NCBI GenBank assembly: GCA_019261985.1
Contig: JAFAQY010000038.1
Coordinates: 1 to 39,285 of the forward strand
DNA length: 39,285 bases
Reading direction: 5' to 3'
From: Bryobacterales bacterium
GTDB lineage: Bacteria > Acidobacteriota > Terriglobia > Bryobacterales > Bryobacteraceae
Positions within the stretch are counted from its first letter, which is position 1; each line of letters opens with the position of its first letter. The translations under genes were made by a program, and so were the position numbers. Shown here piece after piece: positions 32,695 through 39,285 of this stretch. A model generated the notes under the pieces. It made no database searches, was not told the DNA's origin, and saw only the letters and a list, made by a program, of their open reading frames with translations.

Positions 32695-33099
32695 ATGGCT
32701 ACACCAACGACACGTCAGGAAAATGTAGAGCTGTTACGGCGGAGATTTGCGGAGTTCCGCCAGACGCACGCTGTGCGGTCTCGGTTGCCGGAGGAGTTGT
32801 GGGCGGCGGCGGCGAAGCTGACGCAGCGGGATGGCATCGAGGCGACCGCGCAGGCGCTCGAGGTGGACCGGCCGAGTTTGAAGAAGTGGGCCGAGCGATT
32901 CGAGCCCTCCGCGAAGCGGCGTGTGCGCAGGAGACAGACCGCACCGGCGTTTGTGGAACTACTCACCGCGCCTGTAGCGCCAGCAGCCGGGTGCCGGGTG
33001 GAGGTGGAATCGGCGCGGGGAGCCAAGCTCCGGTTGGAGTTCGCGAGCCTAGCGCCGGAGCAGTTGGTGGAGTTGATCCGCACGTTTGCGGCCCATTGA
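32695..33099 (+). CDS. tnpA: IS66-family accessory protein TnpA
   Basis: 134 residues. The N-terminal half is a helix-turn-helix-like region (LPEELWAAAAKLTQRDGIEA; ALEVDRPSLKKW). The C-terminal half ends VELIRTFAAH, a pattern seen in IS66 OrfA proteins (SLAPEQLVELIR). The start ATG at 32695 follows GGGAGGAGG. The IS66 mechanism needs TnpA and TnpB alongside the TnpC transposase. tnpB starts 4 bp after the stop. Confidence 0.82.
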   Translation: MATPTTRQENVELLRRRFAEFRQTHAVRSRLPEELWAAAAKLTQRDGIEATAQALEVDRPSLKKWAERFEPSAKRRVRRRQTAPAFVELLTAPVAPAAGCRVEVESARGAKLRLEFASLAPEQLVELIRTFAAH

Positions 33100-33103
33100 A
33101 ACC

Positions 33104-33451
33104 ATGCTGCAGATCACGCCGCAGATGCGGATTCTGGTGGCCGTGGAGGCGGTCGATTTTCGCAAGGGCATCGATTCGCTGGCAGAGGTGTGCCGCGCCA
33201 AACTCAATGCCGATCCGTTTTCGGGCAGTGTGTTTGTGTTTCGCAGCCGGCGCGCCACGTCGATCAAGATTCTGGTGTACGACGGGCAAGGCTTCTGGCT
33301 GGCGACCAAGCGTTTATCGAAAGGCCGGTTTCGTTGGTGGCCGCAGAGTGAGGAATCCGCAAAGGTATTGCGCGTGCATCAAGCGCAGGTGTTGCTGGCC
33401 GCGGGCAATCCGGAGACCGACGCGCCGCCGGTGTGGCGCAAGGTGAGTTGA
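33104..33451 (+). CDS. tnpB: IS66-family TnpB (Orf2)
   Basis: 115 residues. The highly conserved TnpB pattern is visible: VDFRKGIDSLAEVCRAKLN, DPFSGSVFVFRSRRATSIKI, LVYDGQGFWLATKRLSKGRF and WWP. The start is the ATG at 33104, 4 bp after the tnpA stop. TnpB is required for IS66 transposition, but its biochemical role is undefined. It appears intact. Confidence 0.95.
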   Translation: MLQITPQMRILVAVEAVDFRKGIDSLAEVCRAKLNADPFSGSVFVFRSRRATSIKILVYDGQGFWLATKRLSKGRFRWWPQSEESAKVLRVHQAQVLLAAGNPETDAPPVWRKVS

Positions 33452-33494: not shown

Positions 33495-34355
33495 GTGATC
33501 TATCGCGGACGTAGCGTGACGAACGAAGACATCGCGCTGATTCGAAGATGGATTCAGGAACGTCCGCACCTAAGCCGCTGGAAGCTGTCGCGAGAGCTGT
33601 GCGAAGTCTGGCAGTGGAAGCAGGCCAACGGCGCGCTACGTGACATGCTGTGCCGCGGATTGTTGCTCCAGCTTCATCGCACGGGTGAGATCGAGTTGCC
33701 GCCGATCAAGCGCACGGTACGGAATCGCATTGCCGAGCGAGGGCGACCCGAGCACGTGGCGATCGAAGAGCGTCCCTTCGCAGGATCGTTCAGCGAGTTG
33801 CCGCCGCTGGAGTTCGTGCAGGTGCGGCGCACTTCGGAAGAAGCACTGTTCCACAGCTTGCTCGAGCAGCATCATTATCTGGGCTACGAGCGGCCGGTGG
33901 GTGAACATCTGAAGTATCTGGTGAAAGCACGCGGGCAAGCCATCGCGTGTCTAGCCTGGTCCAGCGCACCGCGGCACTTGAAGCTGCGCGACCGCTATCT
34001 GGGCTGGAGCGATCAGGCTCGCGAGCGCAATGTACATCTGCTGGCCTATAACACGCGCTTCCTGATTCTGCCGTGGATTCGCGTGCCGCACTTGGCTTCG
34101 CACATTTTGGGACGCATGGGGAAGATCGTCTCCGAAGATTGGCAACGGATCTACGCGCATCCGATTTATTGGTTGGAAACGTTCGTCGATACCTCGCGCT
34201 TCGCCGGCACGTGCTACCGCGCGGCCAACTGGATCGAGATCGGAGTGACGCAAGGGCGCGGGCATCGTGCGCCGACGTTCGAGCAGACCCGTCCGGTGAA
34301 AAAGATGCTGGGATTGCCCTTGCATCGCCGCTACCGAGAGATCCTCTGCGCATGA
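33495..34355 (+). CDS. DUF4338 (DruA-like) passenger protein in an IS66 element
   Basis: 286 residues. Recognisable DUF4338 features: an N-terminal helical region (VTNEDIALIRRWIQERPHLS), FHSLLEQHHYLGYERPVGEH, CLAWSSAPRHLKLRDRYLGW, NTRFLILPWIRVPHLASHIL and YWLETFVDTSRFAGTCYRAANW. DUF4338 also defines DruA, a component of the Druantia anti-phage system, but none of the other Druantia genes is present. Shorter DUF4338 proteins like this one occur in transposable elements. It sits between tnpB and tnpC, and its stop overlaps the tnpC start as ATGA, so it is an integral part of the element. Its function in transposition or defence is unknown. Confidence 0.8.
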   Translation: MIYRGRSVTNEDIALIRRWIQERPHLSRWKLSRELCEVWQWKQANGALRDMLCRGLLLQLHRTGEIELPPIKRTVRNRIAERGRPEHVAIEERPFAGSFSELPPLEFVQVRRTSEEALFHSLLEQHHYLGYERPVGEHLKYLVKARGQAIACLAWSSAPRHLKLRDRYLGWSDQARERNVHLLAYNTRFLILPWIRVPHLASHILGRMGKIVSEDWQRIYAHPIYWLETFVDTSRFAGTCYRAANWIEIGVTQGRGHRAPTFEQTRPVKKMLGLPLHRRYREILCA

Positions 34356-35620
34356 AACGGCCACGGCTGGAAGTCAACCTGGAAGAGCTGGATCGCGTCC
34401 TGGATCATGCGCGCGAAGCTCCGCTGAACGAATCGGATTACGAAAAACTGAGAAATACCCTACACGCCCTGGCCGGTATGCTGCCGCCACCGCGTTCCAC
34501 GGAAAAGACCAAGAACGTTTTGGGGCAGCCCGAAACGCCGGAACCGAAATCTGATCCGGAGAAACAGCCGGGCCACGGCCGCAACGGCGCTTCGTCTTAC
34601 ACGGGCGCGAAGCAAGTCGCCGTGCCGCATCCCACCCTGAAGCCCGGCGAGCCGTGTCCCGGATGTCGGAAGGGGAAAATCTATCCCCAGAAAGAACCTC
34701 GCGTGCTGGTGCGCCTCATCGGACAAGCTCCGCTGGCCGCCACGGTGTATTCGCTCGACCGGTTACGCTGCAATCTATGCGGCGAGGTGTTCACGGCACC
34801 GGAACCGGAAGGCGTGGGTCCGGAAAAATACGACGAAACCACGGCTGCCATGATTGCTTTGCTCAAGTACGGCAGCGGGATGCCGTTTTACCGCCTGGAA
34901 AAGCTGGAACATTTACTGGGCATTCCGTTGCCGGCCTCGACACAGTGGGAGATCGTCGAAGAAACCGCCGAAGTCATTAAAGCGGCCCGCGATGAGTTGC
35001 TCCGGCAAGCGGCGCAGGGCGAAGTGTTGCACAACGACGATACTTCGATGCGCGTGTTGGCCATGGCGCGCGAACCATCGGATGATCGCACAGGTGTGTT
35101 TACTTCCGGCATCGTATCCACCCAACAAGGACAAAAAATCGCGCTGTACTTCACCGGCCGCCAGCACGCCGGCGAAAACCTGCGCGACGTGCTCGCTCAT
35201 CGCGCCAAGGGACTCGCCGCGCCCGTGCAGATGTCCGATGCGCTTTCGCGCAACACCTCGGCTCTGCCGGACGGCGTGGAGATTCTGCTGGCCAACTGCC
35301 TGGCCCACGGACGCCGCCAGTTCGTGGAAGTCGCGGACAGTTTCCCGGAGGCCTGCCGCTACGTTCTAGAAACCTTGGGCCGAATATATAAATACGATGC
35401 GGAAGCCCGCGAGCAGAAGCTTTCCCCGGCGGAGCGGCTGGCCTTTCACCAGCAGCATAGTAAACCGGTGATGGAGCACCTGCAACAGTGGATGGAACGC
35501 CAGTTCGCCGAGCATCTGGTGGAGCCCAACTCGGGCTTGGGCAAAGCCATCACTTACTTCTTGCGCCATTGGAAAGGGCTCACCGCGTTTTTGCGCGACG
35601 CGGGCGCCCCGCTCGATAAC

Positions 35621-35656
35621 AATCTCTGGAATGCCGCTAGCGGCATTCCAGAGATT
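35621..35656. repeat. 36-bp perfect palindrome at the left RIT junction
   Basis: Two exact 18-bp arms: AATCTCTGGAATGCCGCT (35621-35638) and its reverse complement (35639-35656). The outer 8 bp at the left are tnpC/direct-repeat sequence. The inner 20 bp (35629-35648) are palindromic alone and absent from the right end. The right side then merges into the 35-bp terminal inverted repeat. It can form a cruciform. Confidence 0.9.
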
Positions 35657-35683
35657 ATGCCGACTTCCGGATTATGCCGCGTG
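35649..35683 (+). repeat. RIT left terminal inverted repeat
   Basis: The 35-bp repeat begins CAGAGATTATGCCGACTTCC and ends GCCGCGTG. It matches the reverse complement of 39017-39051 at 34 of 35 positions, the mismatch being C/T at the sixteenth base. An inward-facing copy of its 13-bp core, ACGCGGCATAATC, follows at 35726-35738. Confidence 0.9.
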
Positions 35684-35785
35684 CGCCAGATTCAGTGGTT
35701 CTTTGTTGGTTTAGGATGATGACCAACGCGGCATAATCATGATCGCCTCTCCCGACTGGCATTCATGCCAACCAGGAGAGGGGAA

Positions 35786-37015
35786 ATGACAACAGCCACT
35801 ACATTTGAAAAGCGCCTGTTCGAGGACGAAATCGAACCTTTCATCGAACAGCTTCGCGCTGCTCGTTATGCTGATAAAACGCTGCGGCGAAAGCGGTCCA
35901 TCGCCAGGGAGTTTGCGCAATGGACACAGCAACAGCGGATTACTTCTGACCATCTCAACCGGAATAGCGCCGCCGAATTCGTAGCCCGCATGCCTCAAAG
36001 GGCCAAGACCCGCGTAGCGCTGGAACGCGGGACCGTCCGTCTGTTTTTGGAACACCTGTGCACGCAAGGCCCGCTCCAGCGTCCCTGCCCGAGGGAGACC
36101 GATTTCGGCCGCAACAGCTATTTGCAGCGATACGAGGATTATCTGCGCAGAAACCGCGGACTCGCAAATAACTCGGTGCTCGTCTACTTACCATTCATTC
36201 GTAATTTCGTCAGCGTTCAGACCATCCAGACTGGCTGTCTGAGCCGGGACGCGTTTGATACGTTGAAGATCCAGAACTTCCTCCTGGCACAAACCAAAGG
36301 CCGGTCGGGCGAGTATGCCCGGCTTCTGGCCACATCGCTCCGGTCGTTCTTGCGTTTTCTGTTTTTCGCGGGCGAGACAACACAGGACTTCTCCAGCGCC
36401 GTTCCGATGGTCCGGAAGTACCGCATGTCGGCGCCGCCATCATTTCTTTCACCCGAGCAAACTGAGCGTGTTCTGGCCATAACGGAGAGGTCCACATCGA
36501 CGGGACGCCGCGATTATGCCGTGCTGCTGCTGCTTGCCCGGCTGGGCCTCAGGGCGGGAGAAGTGGTCTCGCTCGAATTGGACGATATTCGGTGGCGCTC
36601 CGGCGAGATCGTCATCCGCGGTAAAGGCCGCGTGCTGGATCCGTTGCCTTTGGTCTGCGATGTTGGCGAAGGTCTTGCCGCCTACATTCGCAACGACCGA
36701 GGCGTCAGTTCCTCCAGGCGCGTGTTCCTTCGGACCCTGGCGCCTCGTATCGGCCTGACGGGTCCGGCTGCGGTTGGGCATATCGTACGGCGTGCCCTCG
36801 CCCGAGCCGGGATTAGACGCTCAGGCCGCGGCGCAGCCCATCTCTTCCGGCACGGTTTAGGGGCCAAGATGATTCGGCATGGCGCTTCGCTCTCAGAGAT
36901 TGCTGAAGTCCTCCGGCATCGTTCCCAGAACACCACTGCGATTTACAGCCAAGTGTCCTTCGAAGCCCTGCGTACGGTTGCTCTCCCGTGGCCCCTGACG
37001 GGAGGTGTCCAATGA
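35786..37015 (+). CDS. RIT tyrosine recombinase, first gene (RitA-like)
   Basis: 409 residues from the ATG at 35786, chosen because AGGAG (35774-35778) lies seven bases before it; an in-frame ATG at 35765 lacks such a site. A SAM-like N-terminal DNA-binding region (residues of about 15-230) precedes the catalytic domain. Active-site residues: Arg in LGLRAGEVV, Lys in GKGRVLD, His and Arg in HLFRHGLG, His in LRHRS and Tyr in AIYSQV. All appear present. It probably acts with the next two recombinases. Overlap with the second gene is ATGA. Confidence 0.92.
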   Translation: MTTATTFEKRLFEDEIEPFIEQLRAARYADKTLRRKRSIAREFAQWTQQQRITSDHLNRNSAAEFVARMPQRAKTRVALERGTVRLFLEHLCTQGPLQRPCPRETDFGRNSYLQRYEDYLRRNRGLANNSVLVYLPFIRNFVSVQTIQTGCLSRDAFDTLKIQNFLLAQTKGRSGEYARLLATSLRSFLRFLFFAGETTQDFSSAVPMVRKYRMSAPPSFLSPEQTERVLAITERSTSTGRRDYAVLLLLARLGLRAGEVVSLELDDIRWRSGEIVIRGKGRVLDPLPLVCDVGEGLAAYIRNDRGVSSSRRVFLRTLAPRIGLTGPAAVGHIVRRALARAGIRRSGRGAAHLFRHGLGAKMIRHGASLSEIAEVLRHRSQNTTAIYSQVSFEALRTVALPWPLTGGVQ

Positions 37016-37959
37016 GCGCCCTCCGCGATGCTCTCCCACAATATATATCGCTCCGCCGGGCGCTTGGTACGAAGCTTCAGGAGCCCGCCACGACACTGGA
37101 GCACTTTGTGGAATTCCTCGAACGTGAAGGAGTGGAGTTCATCACTTCGGAACTGGCGCTCCGCTGGGCCATGCAACCACAAGATGTCCAGCGCGCCACA
37201 TGGGCGCGTCGACTCGGAATGGTGAGAAGGTTTGCCGCTTGGTTCAGCACGATTGACGCCCGCACCGAGGTGCCGCCGCACCGGCTCCTCGCTCCACGCC
37301 GAAAACGGAACAAGCCACATATTTTCACTGCGCAGGAAATCGGCCAGTTGATGGCTGAAGCTGCCCGACTCGCCTCACCAACGGGACTGCGGGCACTGAC
37401 TTATACAACGCTGATAGGGCTGCTCACCGCCACAGGTCTGCGACCGGGGGAAGCGCTGACGCTCGACCGATCCGATGTGGATCTCGAAAATGGCATCCTC
37501 GCGATTCGCCAGTCCAAGTTCGGAAAATCCCGTTTCGTGCCCATCTCAGATTCCACGCGCGAGGCTCTTCGGGAATATGCGAAGCAGCGCGACGTCATCT
37601 GCCGGCACCCTCGCACTGACGCTTTTCTTGTTTCGGAGCGTGGCGGTCGGCTGCGGGGGTGTACTGCCCGCCGCACCTTTGCCAGGATTTCATGCATTAT
37701 CGGTCTGCGCACCGTCACGGGAAGCCGCCGGATCGGTCGCGGACCGCGGCTCCAGGACTTCCGCCATTGCTTTGCAACGCGCAAACTTATCGAGTGGTAT
37801 CGAGCCGGCGTCGATGTTGCTCGGGAGCTGCCGAAGCTAACAACCTATCTCGGACACGTCGATGTTGCCCACACCTACTGGTATCTGGAAGCTGTTCCGG
37901 AACTCCTTCAACTGGCCACCGAGCGCATGGCGGAGCGCCGGACTGGAGGCGGACAGTGA
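37012..37959 (+). CDS. RIT tyrosine recombinase, second gene (RitB-like)
   Basis: 315 residues. The N-terminal core-binding domain spans about 1-95. The catalytic domain has Arg in TGLRPGEAL, Lys in FGKSRFVPI, box II LQDFRHCFAT, His in YLGHVDVAHTY and Tyr in the following TYWYLEAV. Box II has Gln where most family members have His (QxxR in place of HxxR); the codon is CAG. The start ATG at 37012 overlaps the first gene stop. The stop overlaps the next gene as GTGA. Confidence 0.9.
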   Translation: MSALRDALPQYISLRRALGTKLQEPATTLEHFVEFLEREGVEFITSELALRWAMQPQDVQRATWARRLGMVRRFAAWFSTIDARTEVPPHRLLAPRRKRNKPHIFTAQEIGQLMAEAARLASPTGLRALTYTTLIGLLTATGLRPGEALTLDRSDVDLENGILAIRQSKFGKSRFVPISDSTREALREYAKQRDVICRHPRTDAFLVSERGGRLRGCTARRTFARISCIIGLRTVTGSRRIGRGPRLQDFRHCFATRKLIEWYRAGVDVARELPKLTTYLGHVDVAHTYWYLEAVPELLQLATERMAERRTGGGQ

Positions 37960-38951
37960 AAGGCTCCACCTTGCAATCCCTCATTCAGCTTTTCTTCGCC
38001 GATCGACTGCAAAAGCAACTCGGCGTGAGTCCGCACACCGTAGCCGCTTACCGTGACGCCTTCCGCCTATTGCTCAAGTTCGCGTCGGAACGTCTGAGCC
38101 GCGGACCTTCCGAGCTGCGGATCGAAGATCTCGATGCGCCCTTTCTGGGGAAATTCCTGGACTATCTGGAAGAGGTTCGCGGCAACTGTATTCGGACCCG
38201 AAATAACCGCTTGGCGGCCTTCCATGCGTTCTTCCAATATGTGTCCATCAGCGAACCGGCACTGGCGCTGCACTGTCAACGCGTCCTGGCGATCCCTTCG
38301 AAGCGGCATGAACGCGGTCCGGTCGCGTTCCTCACTGAAGAAGAGAGCGCCGCTCTGGTAGCAGCACCCAGTCTCGACGCATGGGTCGGAAGGCGCGATA
38401 GAGCGCTTTTGCTTCTGGCCATTCAAACGGGCCTCCGCAATACGGAACTCACATCGCTCCGGCGCCAGGATGTGGAGTTTGGCGCCGTCGCCCACGTCCG
38501 CTGTTTCGGAAAGGGCCGCAAGATGAGATGCACACCGCTGCGCCAGGATGTCGCTGCGGTGCTCAAGGAATGGCTGTCCCGACAAGAAGGCAAGCCAGAT
38601 GATCCTGTGTTTCCAAGTTCAAAAGGAGGACGGCTAAGCGCCGATGCCCTGCAGCGGCTGGTGGCGAAACATGCCGCCACCGCTCGAAAAATCTACCCAT
38701 CTCTGGCGACCAAGAAGGTCACGCCCCACACGCTGCGCCACGGGGCCGCTATGGCCATGCTTCGCCGGGGCGTGGATCTCACTGTCATTGCCCTTTGGCT
38801 CGGCCACGAATCGACTGAAACGACCCAGATCTACCTTCATGCAGATATGCAACTCAAAGAGAAAGCGCTGGCGCACGCCGCACCATCGGGAGCGCCGCCC
38901 GACCGCTTCCGGCCAACCGACTCGTTGCTCGCTTTTCTGGAGCGTCTGTGA
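37956..38951 (+). CDS. RIT tyrosine recombinase, third gene (RitC-like)
   Basis: 331 residues from the GTG at 37956, preceded by GGAGGCGG and overlapping the second gene stop. The long open frame upstream is a shadow of the second gene. The N-terminal SAM-like domain (LIQLFFADRLQKQLGVSPHT) is typical of XerC/D-type recombinases. The catalytic residues are complete: Arg in TGLRNTEL, Lys in FGKGRKMRC, HTLRHGAAM, His in WLGHESTE and Tyr in IYLHADM. The element-end motif at 38950 begins at the last bases of this gene. Confidence 0.92.
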   Translation: MKGSTLQSLIQLFFADRLQKQLGVSPHTVAAYRDAFRLLLKFASERLSRGPSELRIEDLDAPFLGKFLDYLEEVRGNCIRTRNNRLAAFHAFFQYVSISEPALALHCQRVLAIPSKRHERGPVAFLTEEESAALVAAPSLDAWVGRRDRALLLLAIQTGLRNTELTSLRRQDVEFGAVAHVRCFGKGRKMRCTPLRQDVAAVLKEWLSRQEGKPDDPVFPSSKGGRLSADALQRLVAKHAATARKIYPSLATKKVTPHTLRHGAAMAMLRRGVDLTVIALWLGHESTETTQIYLHADMQLKEKALAHAAPSGAPPDRFRPTDSLLAFLERL

Positions 38952-39016
38952 TTATGCCGCGTCTCGGAATCACCAGAATCAGAGATCCTTCCGAAACGGA
39001 GCATCCGCGAAATCTC

Positions 39017-39051
39017 CACGCGGCATAATCCGGAAATCGGCATAATCTCTG
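39017..39051 (-). repeat. RIT right terminal inverted repeat
   Basis: Reverse complement of the left terminal repeat with one mismatch. A partner motif, GATTATGCCGCGT, lies inward at 38950-38962, so each end carries a convergent pair of the 13-bp motif: left at 35670-35682 and 35726-35738, right at 38950-38962 and 39018-39030. These are likely recombinase-binding sites. Confidence 0.9.
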
Positions 39052-39285
39052 CGAGCGCGCCCTCAAGCGTGCCGTGCTGCATCGCAAGAACGCTCTGTTC
39101 TATCGCACGCTGCACGGCTCCGAGGTGGGCGACCTGTTCATGAGCCTGATCCACACCTGTGAACTAGCGGGCGCCGATGCCTTCGACTACTTGAGCCAGT
39201 TGCAGCGCCATGCCGCCGAACTTATGGCGAATCCCGCCGCGTGGATGCCATGGAATTATCAAGAGCAGTCTGGCCTAAAACCATC
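39052..39285 (+). pseudogene. tnpC: IS66 transposase TnpC, 3' portion (runs off window)
   Basis: After the right direct repeat, the frame reads C-ERALKRAVLHRKNALFYRT, then LHGSEVGDLFMSLIHTCELA and NPAAWMPWNYQEQSGLKP to the window end, with no stop. This is the C-terminus of IS66 TnpC including the conserved ER of LDNN..ER. Joined at AATCTCTG it continues the 5' portion without loss. It has no start codon or promoter of its own. Confidence 0.92.

Follow-up and report, generated by a model that had tools for sequence, protein, structure and literature searches.

Here we show that an intact RIT (recombinase in trio) element, carrying the genes ritABC, lies within the tnpC transposase gene of an IS66 insertion sequence at positions 35621-39051 of a 39,285-nucleotide stretch of Bryobacterales DNA (the window, which spans the entire contig C3 of the host assembly, 39285 bp). 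Insertion probably took place by site-specific recombination at the IS66 codons D-N/N-x-x/E-R, via a symmetric attachment (att) junction. Combining the anatomy of the ends with the targets of related elements, we lean, by a little, towards the wider proposal that RITs are specialists attacking other mobile elements at catalytic-motif codons, that their clades tend to one motif each via a symmetric double core site, and that 6-bp fossils record their past targets, which, for recombinase-targeting RITs, would include other RITs.

RITs were named in 2009. In the portions of the literature covered here (cited by PMC number), they are described as approximately 3,500 bp long (PMC3414803), with terminal inverted repeats of 34 bp (PMC10214605) and a palindrome near their ends (PMC3414803, PMC2864759, PMC10214605, PMC8138268), and rit1 (ritA1B1C1) of C. 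metallidurans CH34 is reported to inactivate an IS66 tnpA, and another RIT radC (PMC2864759). RITs, including one in IS66, are already known; the target rule appears to be unpublished within this literature, in which searches found no RIT target-codon rule, the main RIT papers (Ricker 2013, Van Houdt 2009) and Nielsen 2017 lying outside its scope. The published RITs of CH34 and pHG1 resemble that of the window in having three overlapping tyrosine recombinase genes, a length of approximately 3,500 bp, and inverted terminal repeats, and the parts of their descriptions covered here carry no target codon, hexamer rule, or catalytic-motif statement.

The window element is a member of the known RIT family. 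The only gene-like open reading frames between its terminal repeats are those of RitA, RitB, and RitC, which follow one another as A-B-C, each pair of neighbors overlapping by 4 bp (ATGA, then GTGA), with a PF00589 match in each, in agreement with the three overlapping tyrosine recombinase genes noted in a sequence-only reading of this DNA. From repeat copy to repeat copy the element measures 3,423 bp, and its 35-nt terminal inverted repeats pair at 34 of 35 positions, the single mismatch having been noted in the same reading. RitA matches a pHG1 RIT at 50.8%, and matches to RitB and (partial) RitC come next there. No second copy was found in the host genome, where a RitC search otherwise gave recombinases at most 31% identical; of the further RIT copies that had been wanted for comparison of borders, all were supplied by other genomes. 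Two subterminal 14-nt boxes, inverted with respect to one another, contain the same box as the terminal repeat and are possible extra binding sites for the recombinases.

The insertion point lies directly before the Glu of DNNxxER in the IS66 TnpC, which we take to be a catalytic residue. Once 3,423 bp (the insert with one repeat) are removed, the tnpC frame continues as E-R-A-L-K-R to the right of the insert, as expected from the precise, frame-restoring borders first described, and the insertion would silence the host IS66. The 5' part of tnpC scores 172.7 bits against NF033517, below the cut-off of 180. An uninterrupted IS66 homologue, on which the sequence-only reading had staked its case, is present in the host genome itself (C113:15278-15845), reading GATAACAACATCTGTGAGCG with the site GATAAC-AACATCTG-TGAGCG, and carries an extra base just before the site (frame-damaged, read by eye). 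Three further genomes have empty sites: L149, from the same genus, reads AACATCTG, L150 reads AATGTTTG, and L152 reads AACCTCTG; in L151 another RIT occupies the same IS66 place.

The 8-bp repeat originally reported, AATCTCTG, is exact at both borders (35621-35628 and 39044-39051); what had been overlooked is a third copy, inverted at 35649-35656, where its reverse complement forms the tip of the left inverted repeat and completes a perfect 36-bp palindrome. Folded as single-stranded DNA, positions 35621-35683 give z = -6.9, with none of 200 shuffles equally good. With a perfect 36-bp palindrome at the left end and three copies of the 8-mer, AATCTCTG is unlikely to be a simple target duplication. 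All three copies contain the same hexamer, TCTCTG, which gives the site the look of a clean 8-bp repeat, and the window alone cannot discriminate which hexamer is that of the target.

Relatives were sought with RitA and RitC. The RitA search matched 536 plasmid records, 229 of them over at least 80% of RitA length, and 200 of 201 genomes; most of these matches may be other tyrosine recombinases. From a RitC alignment search of GTDB genomes, the best 80 of 582 loci were taken. In the first round (L039-L063), 12 loci went forward together with the window; the rows removed were duplicates (L039=L064, L041=L065, L049=L082), L062, loci in which no terminal repeat was found (L042, L045, L051, L054, L056), and truncated trios (L040, L052, L055, L063). 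The second round yielded 74 trios in L064-L144, 55 of them with a terminal repeat, bringing the candidates to 68. Seven without a core (the first RIT of L067, L079, L085, L087, L117, L128, L138) and ten with cut or unclear ends (L077, L083, L086, L091, L101, L103, L119, L129, L135, L140) were set aside, leaving a final set of 51 RITs parsed to base level, with cores set by hand in L044, L090, L096, L098, L106, and L110. A plasmid search with the left end of the window element gave 10 records, and among the three examined, L198 and L199 are RITs in IS66, the third being L200 from Rhizobium lusitanum. In viral contigs, RitC alignment found four relatives, of which L144, the only one examined, carries the trio, and the exact palindrome pattern found no match there.

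A palindrome of approximately 20 bp stands outside one terminal repeat in 42 of the 51 parsed RITs, at a distance from that repeat of 8 bp in 40, 7 bp in one, and 9 bp in one (L110), and 31 of 42 are perfect. Its commonest bases are TTATGCCGNNNNCGGCATAA, with TCATGCCGCTAGCGGCATGA in much of the IS66 clade. Among the 42 elements with both flanks available, it lies on the left in 20, on the right in 15, and on both sides in none; random positions passed the same test in 40 of 20000 trials. We refer to the 8-mers as outer (o), inner (i), and far (f). At positions 1-2, f equals i in 33 of 35 elements and o equals i in 11 of 35; since f tracks i at these positions, bases 1 and 2 are assigned to the terminal repeat, which leaves a spacer of six bases. 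The 8 bp are therefore read, in the window as elsewhere, as 2 bp of terminal repeat plus a 6-bp spacer (TCTCTG in the window). Together with the repeated use of the same codons, the one-sided palindrome, and a fixed polarity in IS66, this division is directly legible in the compared sequences.

Four IS66 cases suggest that the hexamer of the target comes to lie at the plain end, of which only L058 is strong. In the strain that carries L058, a different plasmid has an uninterrupted copy (L178, 94.8% identical) reading AACGTGAT, as does f of L058, and o (AATGTGTG) is foreign. For L057, a 78% homologue reads AATGCGGC, f being AACGCGGC and o AACCCGTG; for L061, an 85% homologue reads AACTGGGT, f being AATTGGGT and o AACTGGTG; and for L064, one of ten family homologues reads AACCTTTG, as does f, and none reads as o (AACGCCGC).

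These observations are consistent with the following scheme. The three Rit recombinases would act on a joined, probably circular form of the element, whose att junction would be two-fold symmetric, CGGCAT-2-hexamer-2-ATGCCG-NNNN-CGGCAT-2-hexamer'-2-ATGCCG, and would amount to two core sites back to back, in each of which inverted boxes enclose a 6-bp spacer. Recombination would join one of these core sites to a target core, in IS66 GAYAAYAA-hexamer-NGAR. The asymmetry of the target would decide which flank receives the palindrome, the rit genes being free to face either way, and the target hexamer would end up at the plain end and the element-borne hexamer at the palindrome end, as in the informative cases. 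The circular intermediate, the roles of the three Rit proteins, and the order of strand exchange are what we infer here.

Several points weigh against this scheme. The literature covered here describes RIT movement as not yet shown, a published table listing it as not tested (PMC10214605), and no circular form was found among 20 contigs shorter than 4 kb (exact terminal overlap of 15-399 bp). The palindrome is missing from seven of the 42 elements for which both flanks are available, and that counted for L110 is unlike the consensus and doubtful. Only one handoff case (L058) rests on a close empty copy; f of L061 differs at position 3 from its 85% homologue, and a closer match to L057 (L196, 84.5%) lacks the DNN codons in the stretch examined, which is why the 78% homologue was used. 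Finally, outer and far ends are both complete in 37 elements, and in 19 of these o matches f throughout positions 3-8, more than we would expect for an always unrelated element-borne hexamer, and an added assumption (spacer homology or mismatch repair) is therefore needed.

A rival reading is recombination of a single strand, as in integron cassettes, in which a folded palindromic junction is recombined on one strand and then replicated. The strong DNA fold of the perfect 36-bp palindrome, the proportion of perfect palindromes among relatives, and the one-way movement of the hexamer across the four cases that are informative, which use of one strand would predict, all speak for such a hairpin route. 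However, double-stranded exchange followed by segregation or repair fits the same data, and two back-to-back core sites explain the symmetry without folding; we regard the hairpin route as unlikely. Ordinary transposition, with AATCTCTG as target DNA copied to both sides in an 8-bp target duplication, is less probable still, although the copies in the window are identical and frame-restoring and more than half of the complete elements have equal hexamers. The remaining 18 of 37 have unequal ones, which is not the pattern of a DDE-type duplication and runs counter to the plain duplication that the sequence-only reading implied; the 8-mer also occurs inverted inside the element, positions 1-2 go with the terminal repeat, and the rit genes encode tyrosine recombinases rather than DDE enzymes.

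Site-specific recombination at chosen codons is further supported by the targets themselves. The 51 RITs interrupt IS66 genes (13), tyrosine recombinases (24), ArdC-like genes (4), reverse transcriptases (2), rve transposases (2), and an IstA-like gene (1); five (L043, L053, L122, L132, L133) have no assigned target. On separately searched flanks, Pfam supported 10 of the 13 IS66 assignments, 16 of the 24 recombinases (L092 and L094 being under the curated cut-off, and L111 giving no match when searched), 3 of the 4 ArdC genes (in all three the match to PF18818 stops at position 51 of 126, with L136 under the cut-off; L109 gave no match), the reverse transcriptase of L107, and the rve domains of L082 and L123. 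Junction peptides, not Pfam, were the basis for the recombinase targets of L046, L047, L048, L096, L111, L114, L141, and L143, the IS66 targets of L060, L071, and L072, and those of L109 (ArdC), L102 (reverse transcriptase), and L120 (IstA). The target sites are DN/Nxx/E in IS66, entered by the clade of the window element, and, for other RITs, an Arg-His box in recombinases, the HExxH region in ArdC, and reverse transcriptase or rve domains. The H-x-x-R of recombinases and the Asp of reverse transcriptases at these sites are presumably catalytic, and the IstA site (L120) is conserved but not known to be catalytic. In the genome of Pontibacter L119, three RIT junctions (L192, L194, L195) lie in ArdC-like HELIH codons by reading, some of which may be two ends of one insertion.

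In IS66, the PF03050 match of left fragments cut at the junction (n=9) ends at profile position 256 in eight and at 257 in the window, and in the single right fragment the match begins at 260. In every one of the 15 readable cases the palindrome flanks tnpC on its 5' side, the rit genes pointing the same way as tnpC in 8 and the opposite way in 7. The IS66 RitC clade also contains 12 unclassified loci, of which seven read the DNNxxE codons at a border and L079 probably does; at the borders of L077, L078, L083, and L088 these codons were not shown, or the ends are cut. IS66 insertions total 23 (by reading, and not all independent), comprising the 13 parsed, the 7 clade loci, and L151, L198, and L199 (pHG1). 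The target that the sequence-only reading called exactly defined is thus the same in 22 further RITs, a wider rule than was claimed, and since relatives re-use the same codons, RIT site choice is readable from sequence.

A RitC tree (93 rows, with L043 and L120 labeled DDE by reading, L043 remaining without assigned target in the counts above) groups the 13 classified IS66 elements in a single 25-row clade (100/99) that is free of other classified targets. Across all labels (unclassified as one label), 26 changes are required, compared with a shuffled mean of 42.8 and none of 200 shuffles as low. A strict rule of one clade, one target does not hold: the ArdC label takes 5 changes against a shuffled mean of 4.9 (not clustered), the five ArdC rows lying together with L120 and 20 unclassified rows in a 26-row clade (99/96), and L043 and L082 are nested among recombinase-targeting rows.

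Plasmid p3 of Caballeronia zhejiangensis carries two RIT copies (L198, L059) that differ at 2 of 3,386 bp. The IS66 genes that host them are 68.5% alike across 416 bp; both copies sit at the same codons, with their rit genes facing opposite ways and with different 8-mers, and the pair is an indirect sign of mobility. RitC is nearly identical in L059, L060, L061, and L072, and the right flank is common to L071 and L073; the IS66 cases are therefore not all independent. Such likeness would also be expected of one ancient insertion inherited with IS66, the common codons reflecting descent and not target choice, an explanation made highly improbable by the near-identical RITs in diverged IS66 genes, the two rit orientations, the different hexamers, and the empty sites in homologues. 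In Desulfopila sp. L129, other contigs (L184-L188) contain further junctions of one and the same element, three of them left and two right, and its RIT contig bears a coverage of 461 in its name.

In recombinase-targeting RITs, the hexamer in gene sense has the form n-codon-CA. Among palindrome-bearing elements of this group, the codon is Arg in 16 of 16 for f, 17 of 19 for o, and 15 of 18 for i, and Arg is followed by CA in 16, 17, and 14, respectively. With a chance of 6/64 for Arg, p = 2.4e-13 for i, the elements being treated as independent though not fully so. Where i is unlike f (inner distance 8), Arg is retained in eight of nine elements, in six as a different codon; L110, which has no Arg, was left out of this comparison. 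For the 8 elements whose targets were assigned by eye, the count of Arg in f involves some circularity; among the Pfam-supported ones, i has Arg in 11 of 13. Because i lies within the element, between terminal repeat and palindrome, and still spells Arg-His, it appears to have been copied from a previous target. Alternatively, such inner hexamers may reflect a recombinase preference for TGNCG-like spacers, against which the AGG variants count, but these are few.

If the rule is true, RITs inactivate other mobile elements by interrupting their active sites, which would bear on the restraint of transposases and integrases, and Rit recombinases would become candidate site-specific tools with known targets. 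Through the window element and its relatives the att site is defined, the spacer is set at 6 bp, and the target codons can be predicted, and integration is therefore testable on plasmids. Homing endonucleases and inteins likewise target highly conserved active-site codons, an analogy only, as RITs interrupt the gene and have no splicing or homing nuclease. SE elements have a 6-bp spacer between inverted motifs, with the target hexamer at one end and an element 'fingerprint' at the other (PMC10214605). The proposed RIT handoff resembles this 6-bp fingerprint/footprint handoff, its direction coming from the four IS66 cases, one with a close empty copy. Unlike RITs, SE elements have four genes (intA, tfp, intB, srap), a set which the window element does not carry, and other termini, and the part of the source covered describes no double palindromic att unit for them (PMC10214605). 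GInts and Tn554 also have several tyrosine recombinase-type genes acting together (PMC10214605, PMC5385486, in the parts covered) but differ in gene set, being four-gene islands or, in Tn554, tnpABC.

Table 1. Features of the RIT element and the interrupted IS66 in the window.
Feature	Positions	Strand	Details
IS66 tnpB of host IS66	33086..33451	+	PF05717 TnpB_IS66, E 1.2e-29
DruA-like open reading frame between tnpB and tnpC	33495..34355	+	PF14236 DruA, E 2.5e-31; presumed passenger gene
Interrupted IS66 tnpC, 5' part	34352..35628	+	ends with L-D-N codons and 8-mer AATCTCTG; PF03050 profile 4-257 of 284
36-bp perfect palindrome	35621..35656	.	outer 8-mer AATCTCTG (AA + hexamer TCTCTG), 20-bp palindrome, inner 8-mer CAGAGATT
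20-bp palindrome GAATGCCGCTAGCGGCATTC	35629-35648		central part of the 36-bp palindrome
Left terminal inverted repeat (count of the sequence-only reading)	35649..35683	+	core 35657-35683; 34/35 pairs
Subterminal 14-nt box ACGCGGCATAATCA	35726..35739	.	perfect inverted repeat with 38949-38962
ritA	35786..37015	+	409 aa; PF00589 9.3e-24, PF02899 1e-06; no internal stop
ritB	37012..37959	+	315 aa; PF00589 2.7e-21; ATGA overlap with ritA
ritC	37956..38951	+	331 aa; PF00589 4.4e-34; GTGA overlap with ritB
Subterminal 14-nt box TGATTATGCCGCGT	38949..38962	.	perfect inverted repeat with 35726-35739
Right terminal inverted repeat	39017..39051	-	core 39017-39043; terminal 8-mer AATCTCTG 39044-39051 common to target
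IS66 tnpC, 3' part	39044..39285	+	codons ..C-E-R.., to contig end; 85% identical to the uninterrupted C113 copy

Two minor observations were also made. On C. necator pSym, a second, different RIT lies near position 213 of L067, where the flank reads LLIDEAQE, a Walker B-like ATPase motif by reading. In the window, the DruA-like gene (Druantia defence system family) is an apparent passenger of the host IS66.

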